DNA of 20,798 bases from a virus. Below, piece after piece: positions 2,802-19,341 of this stretch. The stretch is taken from positions 1 through 20,798 of the IMG/VR virus record IMGVR_UViG_3300021961_000774. One strand, given 5' to 3'. Under the pieces are notes generated by a model. It made no database searches. It saw only the letters and a list, made by a program, of their open reading frames with translations, and was not told where the DNA came from. Each line of letters begins with the position of its first letter. Position 1 is the first letter of the stretch. The position numbers were made by a program, and so were the translations under genes.

Positions 2802-5630
2802 ATGGCAGCAACAAGATTTAAGTTCGTTTCTCCCCGCATTTTTGTAAACGAAATTGACCAATCACAATTACCTGCAACACCAATCGGTGTTGGCCCAACT
2901 GTTATCGGTCGTTTCCAAAAAGGCCCAGCAATGCGTCCAGTACGTATTAGCTCACTTGCTGAATTAACTGATGTATTTGGTCAACCAGTAGCTGGTCGTA
3001 AAGGTGGAGATTTATGGCGTGATGGTAATACATTAGGCCCAACATATGCTGCTTATGCTGCACAAGCATGGTTAGCTAACAATAATTCTATCAACATTGT
3101 AAGATTGCTTGGTACTCAACATTCTACTGTTCCAAACGGTGACGCTGGTTCTGCTGGTTGGAAGACCGATAACACAGATGCTGCCACAAGTGGTGGTGCT
3201 TATGGTTTGTTCTTGGCTCCATCTGGTGCTGCTGCTACTACAGTTAATGGTACACTTGCTGCTATATGGTACTTAAATGAAGGTTCGATGGCACTTTCTG
3301 GTACAAGAGCAGGTTCAACTGATACGGTATCTGGTTCAAACGTTCTTCTAAAATCACAAGGAGAATACTCAGAGTTTAAAGCCATTGTTTATAATGCTGC
3401 TGGTACTGCAACCCCAGTAACATTTAACATGAATAAAGATTCGTCAAAATATATTAGAAAGGTATTCAATACGAATCCAGTATTAACAAACACCACCGTA
3501 ACAAGAACGGCAAATGCCAAATCATATTGGCTTGGCGAGTCTTTCATTCGTTCATATGATGAAATTGTTGGCGCAGTATCATCCTCTGCTGGTGAAGTAT
3601 ATGGGTTCATTGCTCCATTGGCCTCTGGCTCAAATTATGGTTCTGTTCACAAAAGACCAATGGCAGCAGCAAAAACAGGATACGTAATTTCACAAGACCT
3701 AACAGTAGATACTGCTTCCTATAGCCCAGCATCTCAAACAAAACTTTTCCGTATCTCAGCACTTGATTCTGGTGAATGGGAAAGCAAAAATCTTAAAATT
3801 GCAATCGAAGATATCAGAGGACCAAGAAACGAATATGAAAATTACGGTAGTTTCTCGGTTGTTGTTCGTGGCGCACAGGACTCAGATGCAGCACCACAAA
3901 TTCTTGAAAGCTTTGCTGGATTAAACCTTGACCCAACATCTACCAATTATATTGGTAAAAGAATTGGTGACAAATATTTAGCTTGGGATGATGTTGAAAA
4001 TCGTTATTCTGAATATGGTACTTATGCTAACCAATCACAATACATTTATGTAGAGATAGAGCAAGAAGTAGAACAAGGCTATACAGACCCATTGCTTCTT
4101 CCATTCGGATTTGAAGGTCCACCAAGATTTAAAGCATTTACTGCTAATAGTGGTTCAACCGTAGCTAGTTTAGGTAATACCTTTGTAAATCGTTCCGCTC
4201 TCAGAGCAACAAGTGTAACACCATTCTTGGATGTGGGAACTTTGAATTTCACAGGTTCTTTCAAGTTCCCAACAGTAGCCCTAAGAGTGTCAGCTTCCGA
4301 TGCTGGTCTTTCAAGACCAACAAGAGCTTACTTTGGTTTGGATGTTGCTAAATATGGTGCAAGAGCTTTGGTAGATAGAAGCTATCAAGATGTTCTTCGT
4401 CCACCACCATCAATGTATTCAAATTATGTTGCATCTGATGCCAATAGAGAAATTTCATTCTACTTTTCATTAGATGATTTGGTAGATACATCAACAGGTG
4501 CTTACTGGTTATCTGGTTCTCGCGCTTCTGGTGCGTCAATTACCGCAGTAAGTGCTAGCGTTACAGGCTCAACTGGTGGTTACGCCTCAGTATTGGCTGC
4601 TGGTTACGATAAGTTCTTAATGCCACTTTACGGTGGTAATGACGGTCTTGATATCACAGAAGCTGAACCATTTGGCAATCATCTTATCACAAGTGCCGAT
4701 ACTGAGTTGAACAAGCATCAATTCTATACTCTCCGCAGAGCTATTGATACTGTTGCAGACCCAGAAAGAGTTGTAACAGATATCATAACAGTACCCGGTG
4801 TAACAAATGAGAGCATAACAGATTATGTTTTGTCAACTTGTGAAAATCGTGGTGATGCATTAGGTATTATTGATTTGCCAAATGTCTACACTCCAGAGAC
4901 TGAATCAACAGCTTCTGCTGCGGCCCGTAGTGATACTACTGTCTCTCAAACAGTATTGGCATTGAGAAACAGAGCAATCAATAATAGCTATGGTGCAACC
5001 TATTATCCTTGGGTACAAATCAGAGATTCATACAGCGCACAAAACGTATGGGTTCCACCTTCAGTAATTGCTCTTGGTGCCCTCTCATACGGTCAAGCCT
5101 CAAGCGAACTTTGGTTTGCTCCAGCAGGTTTCACCAGAGGTGGCTTATCTAGCGGCAATGCAGGTCTACCAGTATTGGCTGTATCAAGAAGACTTTCAGC
5201 AGCAGAGCGTGATTCTCTCTATGAAGCAAATGTTAATCCAATTGCTCAATTCCCAGCAGAAGGTATCGTAATCTTTGGTCAAAAGACAATGCAAGTTACT
5301 CCATCTGCTCTTGATAGAATCAACGTTCGCAGACTAATGATTTACCTCAAGAGAGAAATCTCAATTATTGCTGCAACAATTCTGTTCGACCAAAATGTTC
5401 AAACAACTTGGGATAGATTTAAGACTCCTACTGATGCCTTGTTGTCTAGGGTTAAAGGAAGATTGGGCATAACTGAGTATAAGATTGTTCTAGACAACAC
5501 TACCACAACACCAGATTTGATTGACCGTAATGCTCTCTATGCCAAGATTTTCTTGAAACCAGCAAGAGCAATAGAATACATTGTAATTGACTTTAATATT
5601 ACAAGAACTGGTGCATCTTTTGCAGACTAA
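2802..5630 (+). CDS. contractile tail sheath protein
   Basis: A 942-aa protein that polymerises around the tail tube and contracts on infection. The N-terminus (SPRIFVNEIDQS, then PTVIGRFQKGP) is the standard sheath opening. The C-terminal part is equally typical: residues about 625-695 (NHLITSADTELN through GDALGIIDLPN), YYPWVQI near 734, and the last 100 residues with RRLMIYLKREI, a Phe-Asp-Gln-Asn segment and the final beta strands that link neighbouring subunits. It is much longer than T4 gp18 (659 aa). The extra length lies in Gly/Ser/Ala/Thr-rich stretches, roughly residues 110-600, likely surface domains. AGGAGA upstream fixes the start. The first 90 codons use mostly CGT/CGC for Arg while later parts favour AGA, a mild mosaic. 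Confidence 0.96.
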   Translation: MAATRFKFVSPRIFVNEIDQSQLPATPIGVGPTVIGRFQKGPAMRPVRISSLAELTDVFGQPVAGRKGGDLWRDGNTLGPTYAAYAAQAWLANNNSINIVRLLGTQHSTVPNGDAGSAGWKTDNTDAATSGGAYGLFLAPSGAAATTVNGTLAAIWYLNEGSMALSGTRAGSTDTVSGSNVLLKSQGEYSEFKAIVYNAAGTATPVTFNMNKDSSKYIRKVFNTNPVLTNTTVTRTANAKSYWLGESFIRSYDEIVGAVSSSAGEVYGFIAPLASGSNYGSVHKRPMAAAKTGYVISQDLTVDTASYSPASQTKLFRISALDSGEWESKNLKIAIEDIRGPRNEYENYGSFSVVVRGAQDSDAAPQILESFAGLNLDPTSTNYIGKRIGDKYLAWDDVENRYSEYGTYANQSQYIYVEIEQEVEQGYTDPLLLPFGFEGPPRFKAFTANSGSTVASLGNTFVNRSALRATSVTPFLDVGTLNFTGSFKFPTVALRVSASDAGLSRPTRAYFGLDVAKYGARALVDRSYQDVLRPPPSMYSNYVASDANREISFYFSLDDLVDTSTGAYWLSGSRASGASITAVSASVTGSTGGYASVLAAGYDKFLMPLYGGNDGLDITEAEPFGNHLITSADTELNKHQFYTLRRAIDTVADPERVVTDIITVPGVTNESITDYVLSTCENRGDALGIIDLPNVYTPETESTASAAARSDTTVSQTVLALRNRAINNSYGATYYPWVQIRDSYSAQNVWVPPSVIALGALSYGQASSELWFAPAGFTRGGLSSGNAGLPVLAVSRRLSAAERDSLYEANVNPIAQFPAEGIVIFGQKTMQVTPSALDRINVRRLMIYLKREISIIAATILFDQNVQTTWDRFKTPTDALLSRVKGRLGITEYKIVLDNTTTTPDLIDRNALYAKIFLKPARAIEYIVIDFNITRTGASFAD

Positions 5631-5663: not shown

Positions 5664-6341
5664 ATGGCATTTTGGGACGACGCACAAATAGAGCCAAAAA
5701 GAAAATTTAAGTTTCTAATGTCAATTGATGGTCGAGGCACCTCTGGTACTACTATCGGTGAAGCGGACGGTGTTCAATTAAAAATACCAGAATATGTTGT
5801 TAAAAAAGCAGGTAAACCATCATTCAGTATTTCAGAAGCTAAACACTCATTCTTGGGTCATAACTTCTTTTTCCCCGGTAAGATTGAGTGGAAAGAAGTA
5901 GATGTAACTGTAGTTGATGCTGGTGGTTTTAATGAACAAGATATAACTGATTTAGCTGGCACTAACAAAAATGGTAATCTACAGACAGATACAACTAAAA
6001 CTATTATGCAACTGTTAAACGAAATGGGCTATCAACACCCAAATCAAACAGGCACAGCAGTTACTAATGGTACTGCTGGTGGTGTTAAGACATTTTCAAA
6101 ATGGGGTGGCACTACATCACTTGGTACAGTAAAGTTTAAAGCTTTAGACTCAAATGGTGAAATAGTAGAAAGTTGGGAGCTTAAAAATGCTTGGATTAAA
6201 GACGTAAACTTTGGCGACGGTGATTATTCTTCAGACGATGTAGTTGACATTACAATCAAGTTGCGTTACGATTGGGCAGAATATACACCAGCAACTCCAC
6301 CAGCCGTGACTGGTACCCGTGCTTCTTATCCAAAGAATTAA
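5664..6341 (+). CDS. tail tube protein, gp19-like
   Basis: A 225-aa protein expected to stack as hexameric rings forming the inner tail tube. The N-terminus has FWDDAQIEPKRKFKF (residues 3-17), the C-terminus WIKDVNFGDGDYSSDD (about 176-191) and a closing beta strand. The middle contains a DAGG segment and a helix (TIMQLLNEMGY). This is the usual gp19 layout, somewhat longer than T4 gp19 (163 aa). GGGAG at about 5650 supports the start. It follows the sheath directly, as in most contractile phages, and is paralogous to the next gene. Confidence 0.92.
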   Translation: MAFWDDAQIEPKRKFKFLMSIDGRGTSGTTIGEADGVQLKIPEYVVKKAGKPSFSISEAKHSFLGHNFFFPGKIEWKEVDVTVVDAGGFNEQDITDLAGTNKNGNLQTDTTKTIMQLLNEMGYQHPNQTGTAVTNGTAGGVKTFSKWGGTTSLGTVKFKALDSNGEIVESWELKNAWIKDVNFGDGDYSSDDVVDITIKLRYDWAEYTPATPPAVTGTRASYPKN

Positions 6342-6360: not shown

Positions 6361-7329
6361 ATGGCATTAGTTCTGCCACCAGAGTTTTGGGATAATGCTG
6401 TTAGTGACCCAAAACGAAAGTTTAAATTCTTTGTACAATTTGGGGATAAATCTCTTATAAACGAGGTTTATCCCAAATTTTCCTATATGTGGATGATAAA
6501 GAGTGTATCGAAGCCAAAGCCCTCTTTAGATACCAAGGAAGCAAGTGACCCCGAAACACGCACTTGGTTTGGTTATATTCCAGACCCAAATAAAAGAAAC
6601 CTTGGTACAGTATCGTGGGCACCAATACAAATAAAGTTTATCAACCCAGTTACAAGACAAGAAAGAACAAACTATTCTTTTAAATCTTTTTCATATGACC
6701 CACCAGATATAGAACACCCACCAGCAGTCTCTGTTGTTGCAGATTTAGACCATTTCTTTAGCAGAATCATAGAAGAATCTGATTCTGCTTTTGCTGGTGG
6801 TACTGCTGGTAAAGAACTTAAATGGAGCAATATCTCTTTAACAACAAGACAAGATGTTGTAGCAGCTTATCGCGATTCAATTAAAAATGATAATGATGCA
6901 TTGCAAGCATTTACAAGAAAAAGTCTTAGCGAACAAATCACAGAGGCTGAACCTGCTGGTTTTAAAATGACCAAGGATAATACACAAGATTTGTATTCTT
7001 TTAGTGATACTGGAATGACTTTAGAAAACAATATTGACTGCAAATCAAGTATAGACCAATTCATGAGAGCATCCTGTGTGTTTATAAAATACTTTGGTGA
7101 GATTAGAATCTATGATATGATTAATAATTCACCCGGTGCAAAAAGTTCGCAAACACAAGAAGAGATTGCTTCGGCACCAACAACCTTAACAAATGGTTAT
7201 TGGACTTTGAGAAATCCTTGGATTAAAAGTATAGATTTTGGTAATAATGAATATTCTAGCGATGATTTACAGGAATATACTTTGGAATTAGCTTATGAAT
7301 CTGCTAGATATGTTTCTGGCGATGTTTAA
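6361..7329 (+). CDS. second tail-tube-like protein (baseplate/tube junction candidate)
   Basis: A 322-aa paralogue of the preceding tube protein. Shared ends: FWDNAVSDPKRKFKFF (residues 8-23) against FWDDAQIEPKRKFKFL, and NPWIKSIDFGNNEYSSDD (about 285-302) against NAWIKDVNFGDGDYSSDD. Between them it carries about 100 additional residues, including a charged helical stretch near 165-200. In T4, gp48 and gp54 share the tube fold and start the tube on the baseplate; a longer tube paralogue made in fewer copies fits such a role, or a tube-terminal ring. This is inference. The upstream signal is only AAGAG and there is no ACTATTTA motif, so it is probably co-transcribed with the tube gene and translated less. 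Confidence 0.8.
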   Translation: MALVLPPEFWDNAVSDPKRKFKFFVQFGDKSLINEVYPKFSYMWMIKSVSKPKPSLDTKEASDPETRTWFGYIPDPNKRNLGTVSWAPIQIKFINPVTRQERTNYSFKSFSYDPPDIEHPPAVSVVADLDHFFSRIIEESDSAFAGGTAGKELKWSNISLTTRQDVVAAYRDSIKNDNDALQAFTRKSLSEQITEAEPAGFKMTKDNTQDLYSFSDTGMTLENNIDCKSSIDQFMRASCVFIKYFGEIRIYDMINNSPGAKSSQTQEEIASAPTTLTNGYWTLRNPWIKSIDFGNNEYSSDDLQEYTLELAYESARYVSGDV

Positions 7330-7345: not shown

Positions 7346-8230
7346 ATGAGAAAAAATGAAGATAGAATGGGTGCAGAATTTAATCAAGACCCACCATTTC
7401 AGCAAGTAGCAAATTCACCAACTGCAACTGAGCAACAATCAACACCACAATTATCGTTTGTTGTACCAACTCAAATGGTTGATTTACCATCAAAAGGTTT
7501 AGTTTACCCAGAGGGACACCCTTTGCGTGGTCTAGAATCTGTTGAAATTAGACACATGACAGCAAAAGAAGAAGATACATTAACATCTAGAAGTTTGCTT
7601 AAAAAGGGAACTGCTATTGACAAGATGTTAAATGATATTATCATGGATAAGAATATTAAAGTTGAAAACATGATAATTGGAGATAAAAACGCTCTTGTCG
7701 TAGCGGCAAGAATTACGGGCTACGGTCCAGAATATACAACAAAAGTTGCTTGCCCATCTTGTAATAAAAATCAAGAATATGAATTTGATTTGCTTCAACA
7801 AAATGTAAACGGTCCATTGTCAGAAGAAGAAGTAAAAGAAGTTGGTTTAAGACTAACGGCTAATAATACCTATATTATGACACTATGGGGCGGCAAGGCT
7901 GAAGTTGAACTTAAACTATTAACTGGTCGTGACGAAGCAGTATTATTTGAAAAGATGCAAAAAAATCAAAAAGCAACAGGAAACGCAGATACTACACTAA
8001 CGGACCAACTAAGATTGATGATTCGTTCAGTCAATGGTTCATCAGACGTTGGTGTTATTAATCAGTTTGTTAATTCCTTACCTGTTGCTGATTCCAGAAG
8101 ACTTAGAATGATTTACAAGAAGATTACTCCGTCTGTTGAATTAATTAACACGTTTACTTGTGTTGCATGTGATTATGAAACGGATATGGAGGTTCCGTTC
8201 TCCCAAGACTTTTTTTGGCCTAAGTCCTAG
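7346..8230 (+). CDS. gp26-family baseplate/tail assembly protein with zinc ribbon
   Basis: A 294-aa protein. Residues 1-35 are a polar, Gln-rich leader. About 40-85 (VDLPSKGLVYPEG, then VEIRHMTAKEEDTL) match the T4_baseplate (gp26/gp51) pattern. Cys136-Pro-Ser-Cys139 and Cys272-Val-Ala-Cys275 are two CxxC knuckles that could hold one zinc. Family members act at the hub or as assembly factors upstream of the tape measure. AGAGG precedes the ATG. The reading frame ends 12 bases after seven T's at 8210-8216, where a +1 shift would enter the following ORF and give a 350-aa product. This recalls the two-product tail chaperones that precede tape measure genes in many phages. Confidence 0.75.
   Translation: MRKNEDRMGAEFNQDPPFQQVANSPTATEQQSTPQLSFVVPTQMVDLPSKGLVYPEGHPLRGLESVEIRHMTAKEEDTLTSRSLLKKGTAIDKMLNDIIMDKNIKVENMIIGDKNALVVAARITGYGPEYTTKVACPSCNKNQEYEFDLLQQNVNGPLSEEEVKEVGLRLTANNTYIMTLWGGKAEVELKLLTGRDEAVLFEKMQKNQKATGNADTTLTDQLRLMIRSVNGSSDVGVINQFVNSLPVADSRRLRMIYKKITPSVELINTFTCVACDYETDMEVPFSQDFFWPKS
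8210..8216 (+). other. putative +1 programmed frameshift site (seven T's)
   Basis: In the 7346 frame the codons are GAC TTT TTT TGG CCT AAG TCC TAG. If Phe-tRNA in the P site slips forward one base over the T run, reading continues GGC CTA AGT CCT AGT TAT ATG into the next ORF and bypasses the TAG at 8228-8230. A -2 slip would reach the same frame with one extra Phe. The site lies near the end of the upstream ORF, and the downstream ORF lacks a ribosome binding site of its own. This is an inference from sequence. Confidence 0.5.
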
Positions 8231-8234
8231 TTAT

Positions 8235-8399
8235 ATGGAGAATGTTTATGAACAATTCTTTGTTCTTAAACATCACGGTGGTTGGAGTTTTATAGAAGCT
8301 TATAATCTTCCTCTTGGTCTTAGAAGTTGGTTTGTAAAAAGATTGATGAAGCAATTTGAGGAAGAAAAGAAAGAATACGATAAAGCGACGAGGAAGTAG
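8235..8399 (+). CDS. short tail assembly partner ORF, probably reached by frameshift
   Basis: From the ATG at 8235 this reads 54 aa. The same frame is open back into the upstream gene, and as a +1 frameshift extension it adds 60 aa (GLSPSYMENVYEQFF onward) to that protein. The peptide is helical, with HHGGWSFIEAYNLP and LRSWFVKRLMKQFEEEKKE. It resembles the short ORFs found between gp26-type genes and tape measures in many myophages (from memory). No Shine-Dalgarno lies before 8235; the GGAG at 8237-8240 would serve only an out-of-frame ATG at 8248 that stops after 15 codons. Independent initiation by coupling remains possible. It ends exactly at the terminator hairpin. Confidence 0.65.
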   Translation: MENVYEQFFVLKHHGGWSFIEAYNLPLGLRSWFVKRLMKQFEEEKKEYDKATRK

Positions 8400-8432
8400 A
8401 ACGCTAGTTTAAAAGAACTAGCGTTCTTTTTG
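8398..8432 (+). terminator. rho-independent terminator
   Basis: A 12-bp perfect stem (8398-8409 with 8416-8427), a TAAAAG loop and a T-rich tail. The stem starts inside the TAG stop codon of the short ORF. It closes the tube/assembly transcription unit. Confidence 0.94.
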
Positions 8433-8464: not shown

Positions 8465-8791
8465 ATGGAAGATAAAGATATCACTCCCATCCATATTGAT
8501 TTGGATAGTAAAGATAAATTAAATGAATCTTGGTTATTTGCATTTGGTACTATGATTAAGTTAGTTCTTAAGCAAATGTTTGGTCAAGATGTATTTGTCC
8601 CAATATCTGTTTCTGGTACTACTTCGCAAATTGAGTCTTTTGCAAAAACTCTTGCAAGCGAAAAAAGATATTTTGAATCATATGTTAAACATGGATTAAA
8701 TGACCCAAGAACACATGAAAATAAGTATAAATTAAATATTGCAGTTGACAAATTTGAACGCGATACTGGCATTAAGTGGCCTTACAAATAA
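8465..8791 (+). CDS. conserved small protein upstream of the tape measure
   Basis: A 108-aa acidic-then-basic soluble protein with no membrane segment. Visible features are NESWLFAFGTMIKLVLKQMFG (about residues 20-40), a helix SFAKTLASEKRYFESYVKHG (about 58-77) and the end FERDTGIKWPYK. GAGG precedes the ATG. Its stop codon overlaps the ribosome binding site of the tape measure gene, so the two are translated together. A role in tail assembly is plausible from position, but I do not recognise a named family. Confidence 0.75.
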   Translation: MEDKDITPIHIDLDSKDKLNESWLFAFGTMIKLVLKQMFGQDVFVPISVSGTTSQIESFAKTLASEKRYFESYVKHGLNDPRTHENKYKLNIAVDKFERDTGIKWPYK

Positions 8792-8808: not shown

Positions 8809-11800
8809 ATGGCTGAACCTACGTCTTATTCTAATGAACAAATTGCGAAGGCTAAAGAAGCTATTCTCAATGGTGAAGAACTTAATGAGCAATTACTTAA
8901 AATTATTAATAGTGAAAAACAATTAAGAGATTTATTAAATCAAACTCGTAAGTCTGAAGAGCAGATAGCCTCTGAACGTGCAAAATATCATGAAAAAAGA
9001 TTAGCAGAGCTTAATTTAGAAACAAAAGCTATGGCTACGTTAAGCAATGAAGCTTTAAGAGCAGCAGACGGGTTTCAAGACCTATACACCAAACAACAAA
9101 GAGAGTCTCAAATTGCTGTTGAAAAAGCCTCAATTGCAGTAGAACAACAAAAAGAAAAAATAAAACAATTAGAAAAAGAAGGTGCAACTCATTCTGATAT
9201 TAAAAAACAATTAGAAGAATTAGCAAAATTACAAAAAGATTTATTAAAAACTAAGCAAGAAAATAAAAAACTTGAAGACGAAATAGCCGCTGGCGTTGAT
9301 GGATTTACAACAGCAATAAATCTTTTAGGAATAAAAACTCATGAACAACAACTTACATTAACCGAATCATTTGGTGCTGGTGCCATAAATTATGAAGTTA
9401 TGGCTAAAAAATTTGAAGAGTTTACTGGTTCTAGTATGGCCTTTAGAAACATTATGGCTTCTTTTGGTGCAAAATTTATTGAATCAACTATTGCAATGGC
9501 AAAAGCTCTTGATGGATTGAGAGCTGAAATGTTTAAAGCTACAGGAGGCTCTAACGAACTCACATATTCATTTATGAGATTAGCAGAAACTTCTGGCGAT
9601 ACAGGTACTTCTTTCAAAGAGATGAATGAATCAATAAGTGGTTTATTACAAACAAGTAGTAATTTTACAGAAATGACCAATTCTCAAAGAGAATCGGTAG
9701 CCAGAAATAACGCACAGTTAATTGCAATGGGCGTATCAGCGCAAACTGCTGGTAAGAATTTCTCCATATTCTCTCAATCTCTTGGTATGACAGCGGAACA
9801 ATCAAATGCCTCTTCTAGAGAATTAGCCAGTTTAGCTAAGAATTTAAATATGTCTTTGTCTGAAGTTAGCGACGGATTTGGTCAAGCCGCCACAACAGTT
9901 GTCGCCTATGGTCAAGGGGCGGTAAGAGAGTTTAGTAGACTAGCAGCAGAATCGAAAGCATTAGGTCTTTCAGTTCAAGAACTCATTAATATTGTTAAAG
10001 GTGCGGATACTTTTCAAGGAGCCGCCGAACAAGCAGGTAAATTAAATGCAATGCTTGGTGGTGGTTTGTTAAACTCTTCTCAATTGTTAGTAGCATCAGA
10101 AAGTGAAAGAATTCAATTAATTCGTGATGCTGTTATGCAAACTGGTAGAAGTTTTTCTACAATGAGCAAATATGAACAAATTGCTATTGCAAACGCTGCT
10201 GGTATTCAAGACTTAACTGTAGCACAAAAGTTATTTAATAATGAAATAAATGGTGGCGAACTAGACAGATATCTTGGAAAAACAAATGTTCTTGGTATGT
10301 CACAAGAAGAAATGGAAAAACAAGCCATAGCTGCCAAAGATACTCAAGAAAAATTGAATGTTATAATGGAACAGTTTGCTGCGATAATGTCGCCAGTAGT
10401 AACTATTTTTGGAAAATTATTAGGACTTTTAGTTGAATATGGCACAATAATAAAGATTATATCAGTTTTAACTTTTGCTTATATGACATTAGTAAACCTT
10501 GAAAATATTATAAAAGCGAGAAAATTTATTATAAATGCAATTGAAATGTCTTGGATAAACGCTCAAATTGGTGCAGAAATTATTCAAACTGCTGTTACTG
10601 AAGCTAAGATTTTTACTAAATTAAAGGATATTGCAACAACGATACGTGGAATTGCAGCTAAAGGATTGGATAAAGCTGCTGAATGGGCTGGTATTGCAAT
10701 TGATTGGTTGAAGGTAGGTTCTGTCACGGCTAAAAACGCTGTAATGAATTCCTCATTACTTATCATGGCAAGAAACTTAATTGCTATGGGATTGCAAAGA
10801 GCAGCTACAATTATAAACATAGGTATAACATATGCTATGGCTGCTGCACAATGGTTTTTGGGTGCCGCATCACAATTTGCTGGTGGTAAATTAATGCTAT
10901 TAGTAAACGTATTCTTATTATTATATAATATTTTCCACATGACAGGTTCTCCAATGTTGTACCTTATATTTGGATTCGTTGCAATAGGTGTGTTTCTTCT
11001 AGGTCAAGCAGCCGAAAAGAGTCAAAAAGGTTTGTATGCGTTTGGTGCTGCTATGTTGATGGTTGGTACTGGTGCGTTCTTGGCTTTTCACGGTTTAGAA
11101 GGTTTTGCAACTGCATTAGCTGCACTTGACCCAACACAACTAGCTGCTCTTGTTGCCACTATTATTTTCCTTTCCCTTGCTATGATTGCAATGTTTGCAA
11201 TTGTAATTTTTGCTGGCTCTTCTGCTGTTGGTCCAATGTTAGCATTAGGTGTAGCTTTTCTGCTAATAGGTGCTGGTGCTTATTTGGCTGGTCTTGGTTT
11301 ATCGCTGGTTGTTAATGCTTTTGCTAATTTAGCAACCAATATGGTTGCATTGTTGCTTTTACCATTATTCCTTCAATTAATGGCACTTGGATTTATAGCT
11401 TTAACAATTTCAATATATATGTTTGGTACTGCATTACCAGTATTAATCACAGCAATACCTTTATTATTTATTTTAGCAATAGCATTAGGTTCTGTAGGTG
11501 TTTCATTAGGAATTATTGCTACTGCAATGTTAACCGCTGCTATGGCAAGTGTTATATTTGGAGTTGGATTATTATTAATAAGTAAAGGATTATCGTCATT
11601 TACAGTAGAAGCCGCAGTTGGAATAGCAGCCGTAGCAGTATCATTAGTGTTCTTAAAGTATGCATTGACTGCTATAGGAGCATCAATGATATTATTTGGT
11701 GGACCAATATTAGCTGCCATAGCAATGATAGGATTGTTGGCAATAGCAATCAGTTCAATAACACCAGAAAAATCTATTGCTCTTAAAACTACTGTAGACT

Positions 11801-12105
11801 CAATTCAAGATTTATCCAATACTGGTAAGACGATTACACCAGAGACAATAACTAATTTAGATAAAGTTGTTGACCAAATTCATAAGCTTAATATTGAAGC
11901 CACAATATCAAAAGCTGTAAACATTACTGCACCATTTAAAGAATTGATTGATGCAATCAATGGTCAAACTGCTGCCGCTGCTGGAGGCAAAGAGACAACT
12001 GTTGTTATGAAACTTAATGATAGAGAGTTTGGTAGAGCAGTTGTTGGTGTTATGAACGAGTACGGTACAAAGAATACTTCAATAAGAAAACCAACACCAG
12101 CGTAA
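8809..12105 (+). CDS. tail tape measure protein
   Basis: A 1098-aa protein, the longest in the window, placed after the tube and assembly genes as tape measures normally are. Residues about 10-165 are charged, Gln/Glu/Lys-rich coiled coil. About 180-520 are mixed helix with Ser/Asn-rich repeats of the SREL-SLAKN-LNMS kind. About 540-690 are Ala/Ile-rich helices. About 696-984 form a long run of hydrophobic, Gly/Ala-rich helices, many long enough to span a membrane. The last 110 residues are soluble and charged. Such proteins set tail length and may enter the host membrane during DNA delivery. AAGGAA at 8791-8796 gives a long spacing of 12 bases. The final 110 residues may bind the tail tip. 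Confidence 0.92.
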   Translation: MAEPTSYSNEQIAKAKEAILNGEELNEQLLKIINSEKQLRDLLNQTRKSEEQIASERAKYHEKRLAELNLETKAMATLSNEALRAADGFQDLYTKQQRESQIAVEKASIAVEQQKEKIKQLEKEGATHSDIKKQLEELAKLQKDLLKTKQENKKLEDEIAAGVDGFTTAINLLGIKTHEQQLTLTESFGAGAINYEVMAKKFEEFTGSSMAFRNIMASFGAKFIESTIAMAKALDGLRAEMFKATGGSNELTYSFMRLAETSGDTGTSFKEMNESISGLLQTSSNFTEMTNSQRESVARNNAQLIAMGVSAQTAGKNFSIFSQSLGMTAEQSNASSRELASLAKNLNMSLSEVSDGFGQAATTVVAYGQGAVREFSRLAAESKALGLSVQELINIVKGADTFQGAAEQAGKLNAMLGGGLLNSSQLLVASESERIQLIRDAVMQTGRSFSTMSKYEQIAIANAAGIQDLTVAQKLFNNEINGGELDRYLGKTNVLGMSQEEMEKQAIAAKDTQEKLNVIMEQFAAIMSPVVTIFGKLLGLLVEYGTIIKIISVLTFAYMTLVNLENIIKARKFIINAIEMSWINAQIGAEIIQTAVTEAKIFTKLKDIATTIRGIAAKGLDKAAEWAGIAIDWLKVGSVTAKNAVMNSSLLIMARNLIAMGLQRAATIINIGITYAMAAAQWFLGAASQFAGGKLMLLVNVFLLLYNIFHMTGSPMLYLIFGFVAIGVFLLGQAAEKSQKGLYAFGAAMLMVGTGAFLAFHGLEGFATALAALDPTQLAALVATIIFLSLAMIAMFAIVIFAGSSAVGPMLALGVAFLLIGAGAYLAGLGLSLVVNAFANLATNMVALLLLPLFLQLMALGFIALTISIYMFGTALPVLITAIPLLFILAIALGSVGVSLGIIATAMLTAAMASVIFGVGLLLISKGLSSFTVEAAVGIAAVAVSLVFLKYALTAIGASMILFGGPILAAIAMIGLLAIAISSITPEKSIALKTTVDSIQDLSNTGKTITPETITNLDKVVDQIHKLNIEATISKAVNITAPFKELIDAINGQTAAAAGGKETTVVMKLNDREFGRAVVGVMNEYGTKNTSIRKPTPA

Positions 12106-17052: not shown

Positions 17053-17063
17053 GAGGCTGCTTG
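17051..17063 (+). promoter_or_regulatory. ribosome binding site deciding a TTG start
   Basis: AGGAGG at 17051-17056 is the strongest Shine-Dalgarno in the window. The only in-frame start at a usable distance is TTG (17061-17063), four bases on. It overlaps the TAG stop of the upstream gene, so translation is likely coupled. Confidence 0.7.
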
Positions 17064-18248
17064 TACTTTGAAGTCCTCGATAACAAGATTGAATGTTATG
17101 GTTTTTATGCAGACGGAGAAATCCACAAAACCCTTCCCGACGATGCAAAATACACTTGGAGTTATAATCCCAACATTTCATTAGATTCTGTTGAATATAT
17201 GAATCTTCGTGTTGGTGGTAAGGACATTGGCGAAGTGTGCCCAGACCATCTTAAAGAAGATTGGAAGATTGCATCTGATAGGCTCAAGGCTTATATGAGG
17301 TCTTTTGTAACTGCCAAGATTAATCTTGAACATAACTGTTTCTATGACTTGGTGCCAGAGCGGTTCTTGCTTGAATATTTCTCGATTAAATCCAAGATTA
17401 CACAATGGGTGCAAGAAAACCACAAAGCACCAGACAACTATGAATTTATGGTAGACCTTGCCAAGTTTGTAGACGACATTAAGCGTCAAAAGCTTGAGAT
17501 TGACCTTGCACCGCTTAACACAAAGATTGCGAATCCTCGCACCAAAGCGATGCGTAAAAAGCTTGAAACAATGCCACCATTTGTTCGCTACAATATGTTT
17601 GGCACGATTACTGGTCGCCTATCGACTATTGAGAACTCGTTTCCAATTCTGTCTCTCGACAAAAACTATCGTTCCGTAATTAAGCCTACAAATGATTGGT
17701 TTGTTGAACTAGACTTTAATGGTGCAGAACTGCGTACATTCTTGGCTCTTGCTGGTCATAAACAGCCAGACGTAGACATTCACGATTGGAATGTTGAGAA
17801 CGTGTTTGGTGGTGGTATTACGCGAGAAGAAGCAAAAGAGAAAATTTTTGCTTGGTTATATGGTTCTGGCAAGAAGGATACAATCTTGTCTAAGATTTAC
17901 GACCGTGATATGGTTCGTGAGAGGTATTGGAATGGTTACGAGGTCAACACGCCTTATAATCGTAAGATTGAGTCCGATAGACACCACGCAATGTCTTATA
18001 TTATTCAATCTACGTTCTCCGATATTGTGTTAAGACAAGCAATTAAGGTGCATAACTTTTTGAAAGATAAGAAGTCGTTTATTTCATTTGCTATTCACGA
18101 TAATATCGTTCTTGATATTGCAGATGATGAAAAAAGATTGCTTAGAGAGATTATGAACATCTTCTCTAATACAGATTATGGACTATTTAAAGTAAATATC
18201 AAAGTAGGAAATGACTACGGAGATATGAAAACTTTGGGTAAAAACTAA
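17061..18248 (+). CDS. compact family A DNA polymerase without exonuclease domain
   Basis: A 395-aa protein with the Pol I palm and fingers: TGRLST (184-189); motif A Asp218-Phe-Asn-Gly-Ala-Glu223-Leu-Arg225; O helix Arg255-x3-Lys259-x3-Phe263-x3-Tyr267-Gly268 with the same spacing as E. coli Pol I R754/K758/F762/Y766; Gln316 and Asp321; motif C His346-Asp347-Asn348. Both metal-binding Asp residues are present, but the usual Glu of HDE is Asn. The first 150 residues match a thumb-like region, not a 3'-5' exonuclease; any proofreading domain must be elsewhere. The start is TTG at 17061, four bases after AGGAGG (17051-17056). The gene is visibly richer in G+C than its upstream neighbour. It probably extends phage DNA or repairs it. 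Confidence 0.9.
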   Translation: MYFEVLDNKIECYGFYADGEIHKTLPDDAKYTWSYNPNISLDSVEYMNLRVGGKDIGEVCPDHLKEDWKIASDRLKAYMRSFVTAKINLEHNCFYDLVPERFLLEYFSIKSKITQWVQENHKAPDNYEFMVDLAKFVDDIKRQKLEIDLAPLNTKIANPRTKAMRKKLETMPPFVRYNMFGTITGRLSTIENSFPILSLDKNYRSVIKPTNDWFVELDFNGAELRTFLALAGHKQPDVDIHDWNVENVFGGGITREEAKEKIFAWLYGSGKKDTILSKIYDRDMVRERYWNGYEVNTPYNRKIESDRHHAMSYIIQSTFSDIVLRQAIKVHNFLKDKKSFISFAIHDNIVLDIADDEKRLLREIMNIFSNTDYGLFKVNIKVGNDYGDMKTLGKN

Positions 18249-18255
18249 TTATAAC

Positions 18256-19341
18256 ATGGAAACAGCATTACAAAAGATTGAAAAACAAGCTTTAGAAGAG
18301 ATTAAAGATTATTCTACGGGAAAGAAATACTTTGTTAGTGATTTTCAAGAGAGAGTAAGAAAGAAGAATATTAAAGCAAAGAAGAGATTAATTGGAACAG
18401 GTAATGAAGGTGCGTTATCTGGTCTTGGTGCTATGGAAGAAGAAAAGAAGAAGACACATAGACTTGATAAAGAGTATGACCTATCTGCGCTTAAGAAAGG
18501 CACGAAGGTTGAAATGGAACATGAGAAGGGTGTAAAAAATAAGAAACGTGCCCATGATATGGCAGAGAAAACAGCTAAAGACCATTTAGATGAAGACCCA
18601 AAATATTATGATAAATTAGAGAAGATTGAAGAATCTATAAAACAATATGCTGCTTTAGAAGAAGGTATTCTTCAATGGCTAGGATTAGCTAAACCAGATA
18701 AAGAAATAGAACCATATTTAGATTATAGTCAACCAGACGGAGCAAATCAATTATATATTGGTGCTTTTCCATCAATTGTTAGAGGTGAAATGGAAGATGC
18801 TAAGAAAAAGTTTGATAAAATCTATAATATGTCAATTGATGCTAAACAGATAATGTCAAGAAATTCTCCAAAAGAATATAGTGAATTAACTGCGGGAGAT
18901 AATCCTTTTATAATTGATACATATGCGATTGAAGATTTAGATTTAGATGAAACTACAGATGCTGCTAGAATTCAAGAAGAAAACATCATTCTCACAACTG
19001 CTGCCGAATTGGTGGCTCGCGATGTAAAGGCTGGTCTAAGAGTTTTGGTGGTATGTTCCGAAGGACGTAATCGCTCTGTAGCCACTTCTATTGTCGCATT
19101 AAGAACTTTGGGAATGAATCCACAAGAAGCTTATCAAGCAATTAAGGCTGCTAGAGCAAAAACTATGGATGAAGTTGAATTAATTAAAGCAGCAAAAGAG
19201 AACAGGCGCGCAAAAAAAATGAATAAACCTATATTTCATATTAACAATAAACCACATGCAAGATTCATTAAGTTTACAGGAATAACTCCAGATAAGATAG
19301 AAGAAATGGTACGAAGATTCCTTGCCAAGATTCTTCATTGA
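18256..19341 (+). CDS. DUF5661-like / dual-specificity phosphatase fusion
   Basis: A 361-aa protein in two parts. Residues about 75-128 (LSALKKGTKVEMEHEKG, then AEKTAKDHLDEDPKYYDKLEKIE) carry the K-G-x-x-V-E-x-EH and DHL-E-P-x-YY-x-L pattern of DUF5661, a short module common in phages and of unknown function. Residues about 164-310 form a phosphatase-like domain: LYIGAFPSI, acidic IEDLDLDE (225-232, possible general acid) and the P loop VVCSEGRNRSV with Cys267 and Arg273 (CX5R). The His usually before Cys is Val. It should remove phosphate from a protein or small molecule; the substrate is unknown. A C-terminal extension of about 50 basic residues follows. No Shine-Dalgarno is evident; it begins seven bases after the polymerase stop. 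Confidence 0.8.
   Translation: METALQKIEKQALEEIKDYSTGKKYFVSDFQERVRKKNIKAKKRLIGTGNEGALSGLGAMEEEKKKTHRLDKEYDLSALKKGTKVEMEHEKGVKNKKRAHDMAEKTAKDHLDEDPKYYDKLEKIEESIKQYAALEEGILQWLGLAKPDKEIEPYLDYSQPDGANQLYIGAFPSIVRGEMEDAKKKFDKIYNMSIDAKQIMSRNSPKEYSELTAGDNPFIIDTYAIEDLDLDETTDAARIQEENIILTTAAELVARDVKAGLRVLVVCSEGRNRSVATSIVALRTLGMNPQEAYQAIKAARAKTMDEVELIKAAKENRRAKKMNKPIFHINNKPHARFIKFTGITPDKIEEMVRRFLAKILH

Follow-up and report, generated by a model that had tools for sequence, protein, structure and literature searches.

How the short open reading frame (ORF) behind the gp26-family gene of a contractile-tailed phage comes to be translated is the question raised by the 20.8-kb stretch of DNA analyzed here (IMG/VR virus record IMGVR_UViG_3300021961_000774, positions 1 to 20,798; hereafter the window). 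The gp26-family gene (7346..8230, + strand) ends as GAC TTT TTT TGG CCT AAG TCC TAG. The seven consecutive T's of this sequence (8210-8216) are in the phase TTT TTT TGG, and the TAG stop at 8228-8230 lies 11 bases past this run. In the +1 frame, no stop occurs between about 8145 and the one at 8397-8399, up to which this frame encodes GLSPSYMENVYEQFFVLKHHGGWSFIEAYNLPLGLRSWFVKRLMKQFEEEKKEYDKATRK. Thus, both the seven T's shortly before the upstream stop and the uninterrupted +1 frame into the short ORF, as noted in an earlier sequence-only reading, are present. Based on comparative sequence analysis, we consider it very probable that a +1 programmed ribosomal frameshift at a UUU codon followed by a pyrimidine (UUU_Y) produces the long form (TAC-NC) of a tail assembly chaperone (TAC), of which the gp26-family protein would be the short form (TAC-N). 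Either UUU_U at 8210-8213 or UUU_U at 8213-8216 could occupy the P site, and both yield the same junction, ...D-F-F-G-L... The window contains two runs of seven T's, so that such a run alone is not rare; it is the conservation of an in-frame UUU_Y at this point, rather than the seven T's themselves, that exceeds chance.

IMG/VR scans with three gp26 queries (the window, Microcystis phage Mel-JY01 and a Flavobacterium immuto phage) gave 240 loci, and 199 distinct loci with a located site, taken from IMG/VR and from annotated phages, were analyzed. A jumbo-phage query added 16 further +1 loci, resulting in a total of about 215 relatives. In these, the +1 frame continues without a stop into a homologous domain, while the −1 frame mostly closes immediately. 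Among the distinct loci, the next domain, a homologous three-helix domain, was found in the +1 frame in 199/199, and UUU_Y is present in frame at one or the other of two codons, again in 199/199. Retention of the T run and of the open +1 frame in homologues, which the sequence-only reading had suggested to check, therefore supports the +1 programmed frameshift that it proposed. Besides the window and phages SP-15, RM378, Mel-JY01 and immuto, all of which show the +1 relation at UUU_Y, a Flavobacteriales genome contig carries the same site as the window, as does the Rhodothermus phage RM378 itself. The phenylalanine of the site codon is encoded by TTT in 51/51 and 72/72 distinct sequences, compared to approximately 76-78% TTT elsewhere in the gene.

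The forms that the site takes also bear on whether it is the ribosome that slips, and in which direction. TTT TTT TGG (150 of the 199 loci) and TTT CTT TGG (28) dominate; TTT TTT TAC, TTC TTT TGG, TTT CTA TGG, CTT TTT TGG, TTT CTT TAC, TTT CTA TTC, TTC TTT CGT, TTT TTT AGT and TTT TTT CAC are rarer. If ribosomes shifted by −2, as they do in phage Mu, they would reach the same frame as by a +1 shift, and TTTTTTT does permit re-pairing two bases back; the product would, however, carry one more phenylalanine (DFFFGL), and sites such as TTC TTT TGG, TTT CTT TGG, TTT CTA TGG and TTC TTT CGT re-pair poorly after such a shift, yet they keep UUU_Y. Alternatively, RNA polymerase could slip on the seven-T run and drop one U or add two. 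Many relatives, however, have only three to four T's (TTTCTTTGG, TTCTTTTGG) with an unchanged frame relation, and the literature covered names runs above 8 for transcriptional slippage on poly-T (PMC3711429). Because the runs are interrupted in TTC TTT TGG, TTT CTT TGG and TTC TTT CGT, both explanations are disfavoured; we regard the −2 shift as very improbable and polymerase slippage as even less credible.

A third possibility is that the two ORFs are separate genes with overlapping ends and that the short one starts at its own codon or by re-initiation after the gp26 stop. The window does offer an ATG at 8235 right behind the stop as well as a GTG at 8160 as a further possible opening of the +1 ORF. 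The ATG has no Shine-Dalgarno sequence, in agreement with the earlier reading and unlike most other genes of the window. Across the clade, this absence is only weak evidence, because only about one third of the gp26 starts there have a Shine-Dalgarno sequence by the criteria used. More telling is the distribution of start codons: one is found at the position of 8235 in only 37/199 relatives, 42/199 loci lack any ATG, GTG or TTG in a +1-frame stretch that reaches from the upstream stop of that frame to the twelfth codon beyond the site, and only 2/199 have a start codon downstream of the site together with a Shine-Dalgarno sequence. No separate ribosome binding site is seen for the short ORF, and the methionine at 8235 is not conserved.

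Conservation instead begins at the junction, ahead of any start at 8235. Immediately following the shift, the +1-frame residues G1, L2 and Y6 show conservation of at least 90%, while the ATG at 8235 corresponds to position 7. After the tryptophan codon, 48/50 and 95/95 distinct loci (143/145) encode proline by CCT, a codon used for 26-35% of the prolines in those genes; this constraint is imposed by the +1-frame leucine codon, which takes the T of CCT as its second base. Among near relatives of the window, third positions of +1-frame codons have accumulated most of the changes (170; the other two positions have 62 and 45). At the level of sequence comparison, these patterns demonstrate that beyond the junction the +1 frame is translated and that nucleotide-level selection acts on the site. 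Independent translation of the short ORF is therefore improbable, given the conserved residues ahead of the ATG and the kept UUU_Y.

Two loci (L396, gp26 stop at 1918, and L401, gp26 stop at 1915) do show an arrangement expected of separate genes. Both have lost UUU_Y, their +1 frame is closed, and the C-terminal domain is encoded in a different frame, preceded by an ATG that follows the gp26 stop. These may represent a loss of frameshifting. Since UUU_Y and the open +1 frame were lost together, we count them as support for the programmed frameshift.

The identity of the zero-frame protein suggests what such a frameshift would serve. The 294-amino-acid product, which has two CxxC motifs, matches PF12322 (T4_baseplate; 47.4 bits against a cut-off of 24.5, E = 2.5e-12) and phrog_150 (baseplate hub, E = 9e-13), which confirms its earlier description as gp26-type. 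AlphaFold2 was run on the N-terminal protein and the C-terminal domain as two separate parts; the former (mean predicted local distance difference test score, pLDDT, 90) resembles predicted T4-like baseplate hub proteins. PDB gave no matches, either in a sequence search with the fused protein or in a fold search with the N-terminal protein. According to Vladimirov, Gautam and Davidson (2022), gp26/gp51 of T4-like phages are reportedly tail assembly chaperones (TAC-N/TAC-NC), several T4-like groups are said to frameshift gp26/gp51, and T4 is reported to carry the long form as a separate gene. That T4-like gp26/gp51 are tail chaperones, with frameshifting in several groups, is thus already known. 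From this work, family membership and the position before the tape measure gene, we infer a tail assembly chaperone function for the window's pair as well.

The following course of events can be envisaged. Most ribosomes would terminate at the TAG of gp26 (8228) and release TAC-N (294 amino acids). In a minority, tRNA-Phe on a UUU with a pyrimidine next to it would re-pair one base forward, from UUU_U to UUU in the window and from UUU_C to UUC in relatives, so that GGC rather than UGG would be the next codon. Translation would then continue through the 60-amino-acid C-terminal domain to 8399, giving TAC-NC (350 amino acids). By analogy to lambda gpG/gpGT, TAC-N may coat the tape measure protein, while TAC-NC may recruit tail tube subunits. 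P-site slippage of tRNA-Phe is the best reading of the site; both this mechanism and its efficiency are inferred. Lambda and related phages differ in shifting −1 on a heptamer, as opposed to +1 at UUU_Y, and the window's protein belongs to a different family, with CxxC motifs.

The sequence-only reading called +1 the less usual direction, and we agree. Related lineages use this run for a −1 slip. The C-terminal domain lies in the −1 frame in Prochlorococcus phage P-SSM2, Synechococcus phage S-PM2, Pelagibacter phage HTVC008M, KVP40, phiM12, phiW-14 and Atu_ph07. In these phages, the zero-frame site reads TTT TTC (TTT TTT in phiM12). Queries with P-SSM2 and phiM12 yielded 89 loci, of which 86 show the −1 relation. 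The 595-kb phage LR756511 (2197-2290 of its locus, L005) likewise has GGT TTT TTC TTC with the C-terminal domain in the −1 frame. One homologue in this sister group is fused, a case that the sequence-only reading had suggested to look for: in a 236-kb cyanophage-like contig (L347), gp26 and the C-terminal domain form one in-frame gene from 1201 onward (SFWLGMAHVDL..., 289 codons from the match start), which could be either a natural fusion or a sequencing error.

The C-terminal domains of the two groups were compared by profile and by structure. An hhalign comparison of the +1-clade domain with the −1-clade domain gave a match at 95.4% (E = 2e-8). The AlphaFold2 model of the window's domain reached a pLDDT of 94, and its nearest structure in Foldseek is Gp51 of Prochlorococcus phage P-HM1 (probability 1.00, template modelling scores 0.75/0.83), although with an E of only 0.07. 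Residues 200-245 of T4 gp51 match the −1-clade domain profile, which is consistent with the reported separate T4 gene for the long form. The +1-clade profile compared directly to T4 gp51 gave no significant match, and a PHROG scan with the +1 ORF gave only phrog_634 (gp51) below threshold (E = 0.16). Judging from the profile and structure comparisons, the +1 and −1 C-terminal domains are homologous.

In a maximum-likelihood tree of 87 gp26 proteins, two direction changes suffice. The deepest split places −1 loci on one side and +1 loci on the other, save for LR756511, which sits on a long branch. L401 was scored as +1 although it is decoupled from UUU_Y; it lies deep among the +1 rows, and the tree result is therefore unaffected by this label. 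It is likely that the frameshift direction was switched at one T run within one homologous chaperone gene pair, from −1 to +1 or in the opposite order.

Accompanying signals appear to have been exchanged together with the direction: T_TTT_TTC with an upstream Shine-Dalgarno-like element and downstream structure at −1 loci, as opposed to UUU_Y with neither of these signals and with T avoided before the run at +1 loci. The base preceding the run is T in 58/58 distinct −1 loci, compared to 2/154 distinct +1 loci, although 35% would be expected from the T content of third positions there. T-ending Asp, Asn, Ser and Thr codons are never used before the run in +1 loci, and the window has GAC there (8207..8209, +). 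A Shine-Dalgarno-like element was found approximately 10-12 nt before the heptamer in 53/58 of the −1 loci, which also show strong downstream structure (mean z-score −3.74, 90% below −1.5). The combination canonical for a −1 shift, T_TTT_TTY with downstream structure, was not found at +1 loci.

Upstream of the +1 site, constraint exceeds what the protein requires. In the window's clade, codons between 8186 and 8209 (GAG, CCG, NCG and GAC) are kept beyond coding need, with p-values down to 1e-20. These include a GAG eight codons before the site (46/48 versus 32% expected) and a CCG six codons before it (34/51 versus 13% expected), which in the window form the element GGAGGTTCCG (8188..8197, +). 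Pairing of this CCG with a CGG is possible in many clade members and impossible in the window. The clades of Mel-JY01 and immuto have a conserved GGG four codons before the site instead, and part of their members carry GGGG 5 nt upstream of the first Phe codon, a position near the arrangement of RF2. In the window's clade, GAGG lies 17 nt before the first Phe codon. The A-site codon at +1 sites is nearly always UGG.

Some of these results speak against a programmed +1 shift and have to be weighed. A classical +1 stimulator, namely a stop or rare codon in the A site or an RF2-type Shine-Dalgarno sequence at about 3 nt, is not evident in the window's clade, and the conserved GAGG is too far upstream for an RF2-type role. 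There is no consistent RNA structure downstream of +1 loci (mean z-score −0.16); the window alone has a single weak downstream hairpin (z-score −2.5), which is not general in the clade. Furthermore, the p-values given above overstate independence, because the loci are related by descent.

To our knowledge, conserved bacterial +1 frameshifts are few and their signals are poorly understood. In bacteria, +1 shifts are said to occur with particular ease at UUU_Y, the likely site in Yersinia YopN-TyeA (PMC5009743), and the influenza PA-X site is UCC_UUU_CGU (PMC3498833). Both resemble the window's clade in the +1 direction and in a P-site UUU followed by a pyrimidine, and the site of Streptococcus phage GXN1, TTC TTT CGT C, comes close to that of PA-X. 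These genes are, however, unrelated to the phage pair, whose site is conserved across a large group and usually has UGG in the A site. For the archaeal virus HSTV-2, a +1 shift has been predicted in a tail chaperone gene (PMC5009743), a similar case from an archaeal host. T4-like gp26/gp51 share with the window the PF12322/phrog_150 family, the place before the tape measure gene and the C-terminal domain, but their poly-T signals are called −1 in a paper citing Vladimirov et al. 2022 (PMC12846349), whereas the window's clade shifts +1. Within the literature covered, which did not include the full work of Vladimirov et al., we found neither a gp26-family +1 shift at UUU_Y nor a change in direction described.

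If the proposed switch is correct, the gp26 chaperone family would amount to a natural experiment on the determinants of frameshift direction. One gene pair with the same product and the same run would be shifted in opposite directions with exchanged signals, and the causes of direction could therefore be tested by swapping single elements. The +1 form would, moreover, be widespread, though unannotated, in phages of several bacterial phyla. The annotations of five cultured phages either omit the C-terminal domain or list it as a hypothetical protein, separate or truncated; this annotation would be corrected to a part of the long chaperone form.

In the window, the slippery run TTT TTT T (8210..8216, +) is followed by the post-shift C-terminal domain TAC-C (8217..8399, +; GLSPSYMENVYEQFF..., 60 amino acids, three helices). 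The gp26-family gene sits between the tail tube gene (5664-6341) and a probable tape measure gene (8809..12105, +; 1098 amino acids), assigned by a weak TMP_3 match below the cut-off, its length and its position; the encoded protein is the likely client of the chaperone. The pair does not, however, directly precede this gene as the earlier reading implied. A terminator-like hairpin followed by a T run (8398..8427, +) stands directly behind the +1 ORF, and a 108-amino-acid ORF (8465..8791, +), which had no match in Pfam and none in PHROG at E ≤ 0.1, separates chaperone and tape measure. Hairpins of different sequence occur at the same place in relatives of two clades (29/48 and 32/40 loci), and the hairpin perhaps lowers tape measure expression.

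Further upstream lies the tail sheath gene (2802-5630). The tail tube gene at 5664-6341 and a second tube-like gene at 6361-7329 form a tandem pair, both members of which match phrog_4542. Downstream of the tail genes, an ORF at 17061-18248 with a TTG start after AGGAGG shows family A DNA polymerase-like motifs, and the ORF at 18256-19341 contains a CSEGRNRS motif resembling cysteine-based phosphatases.
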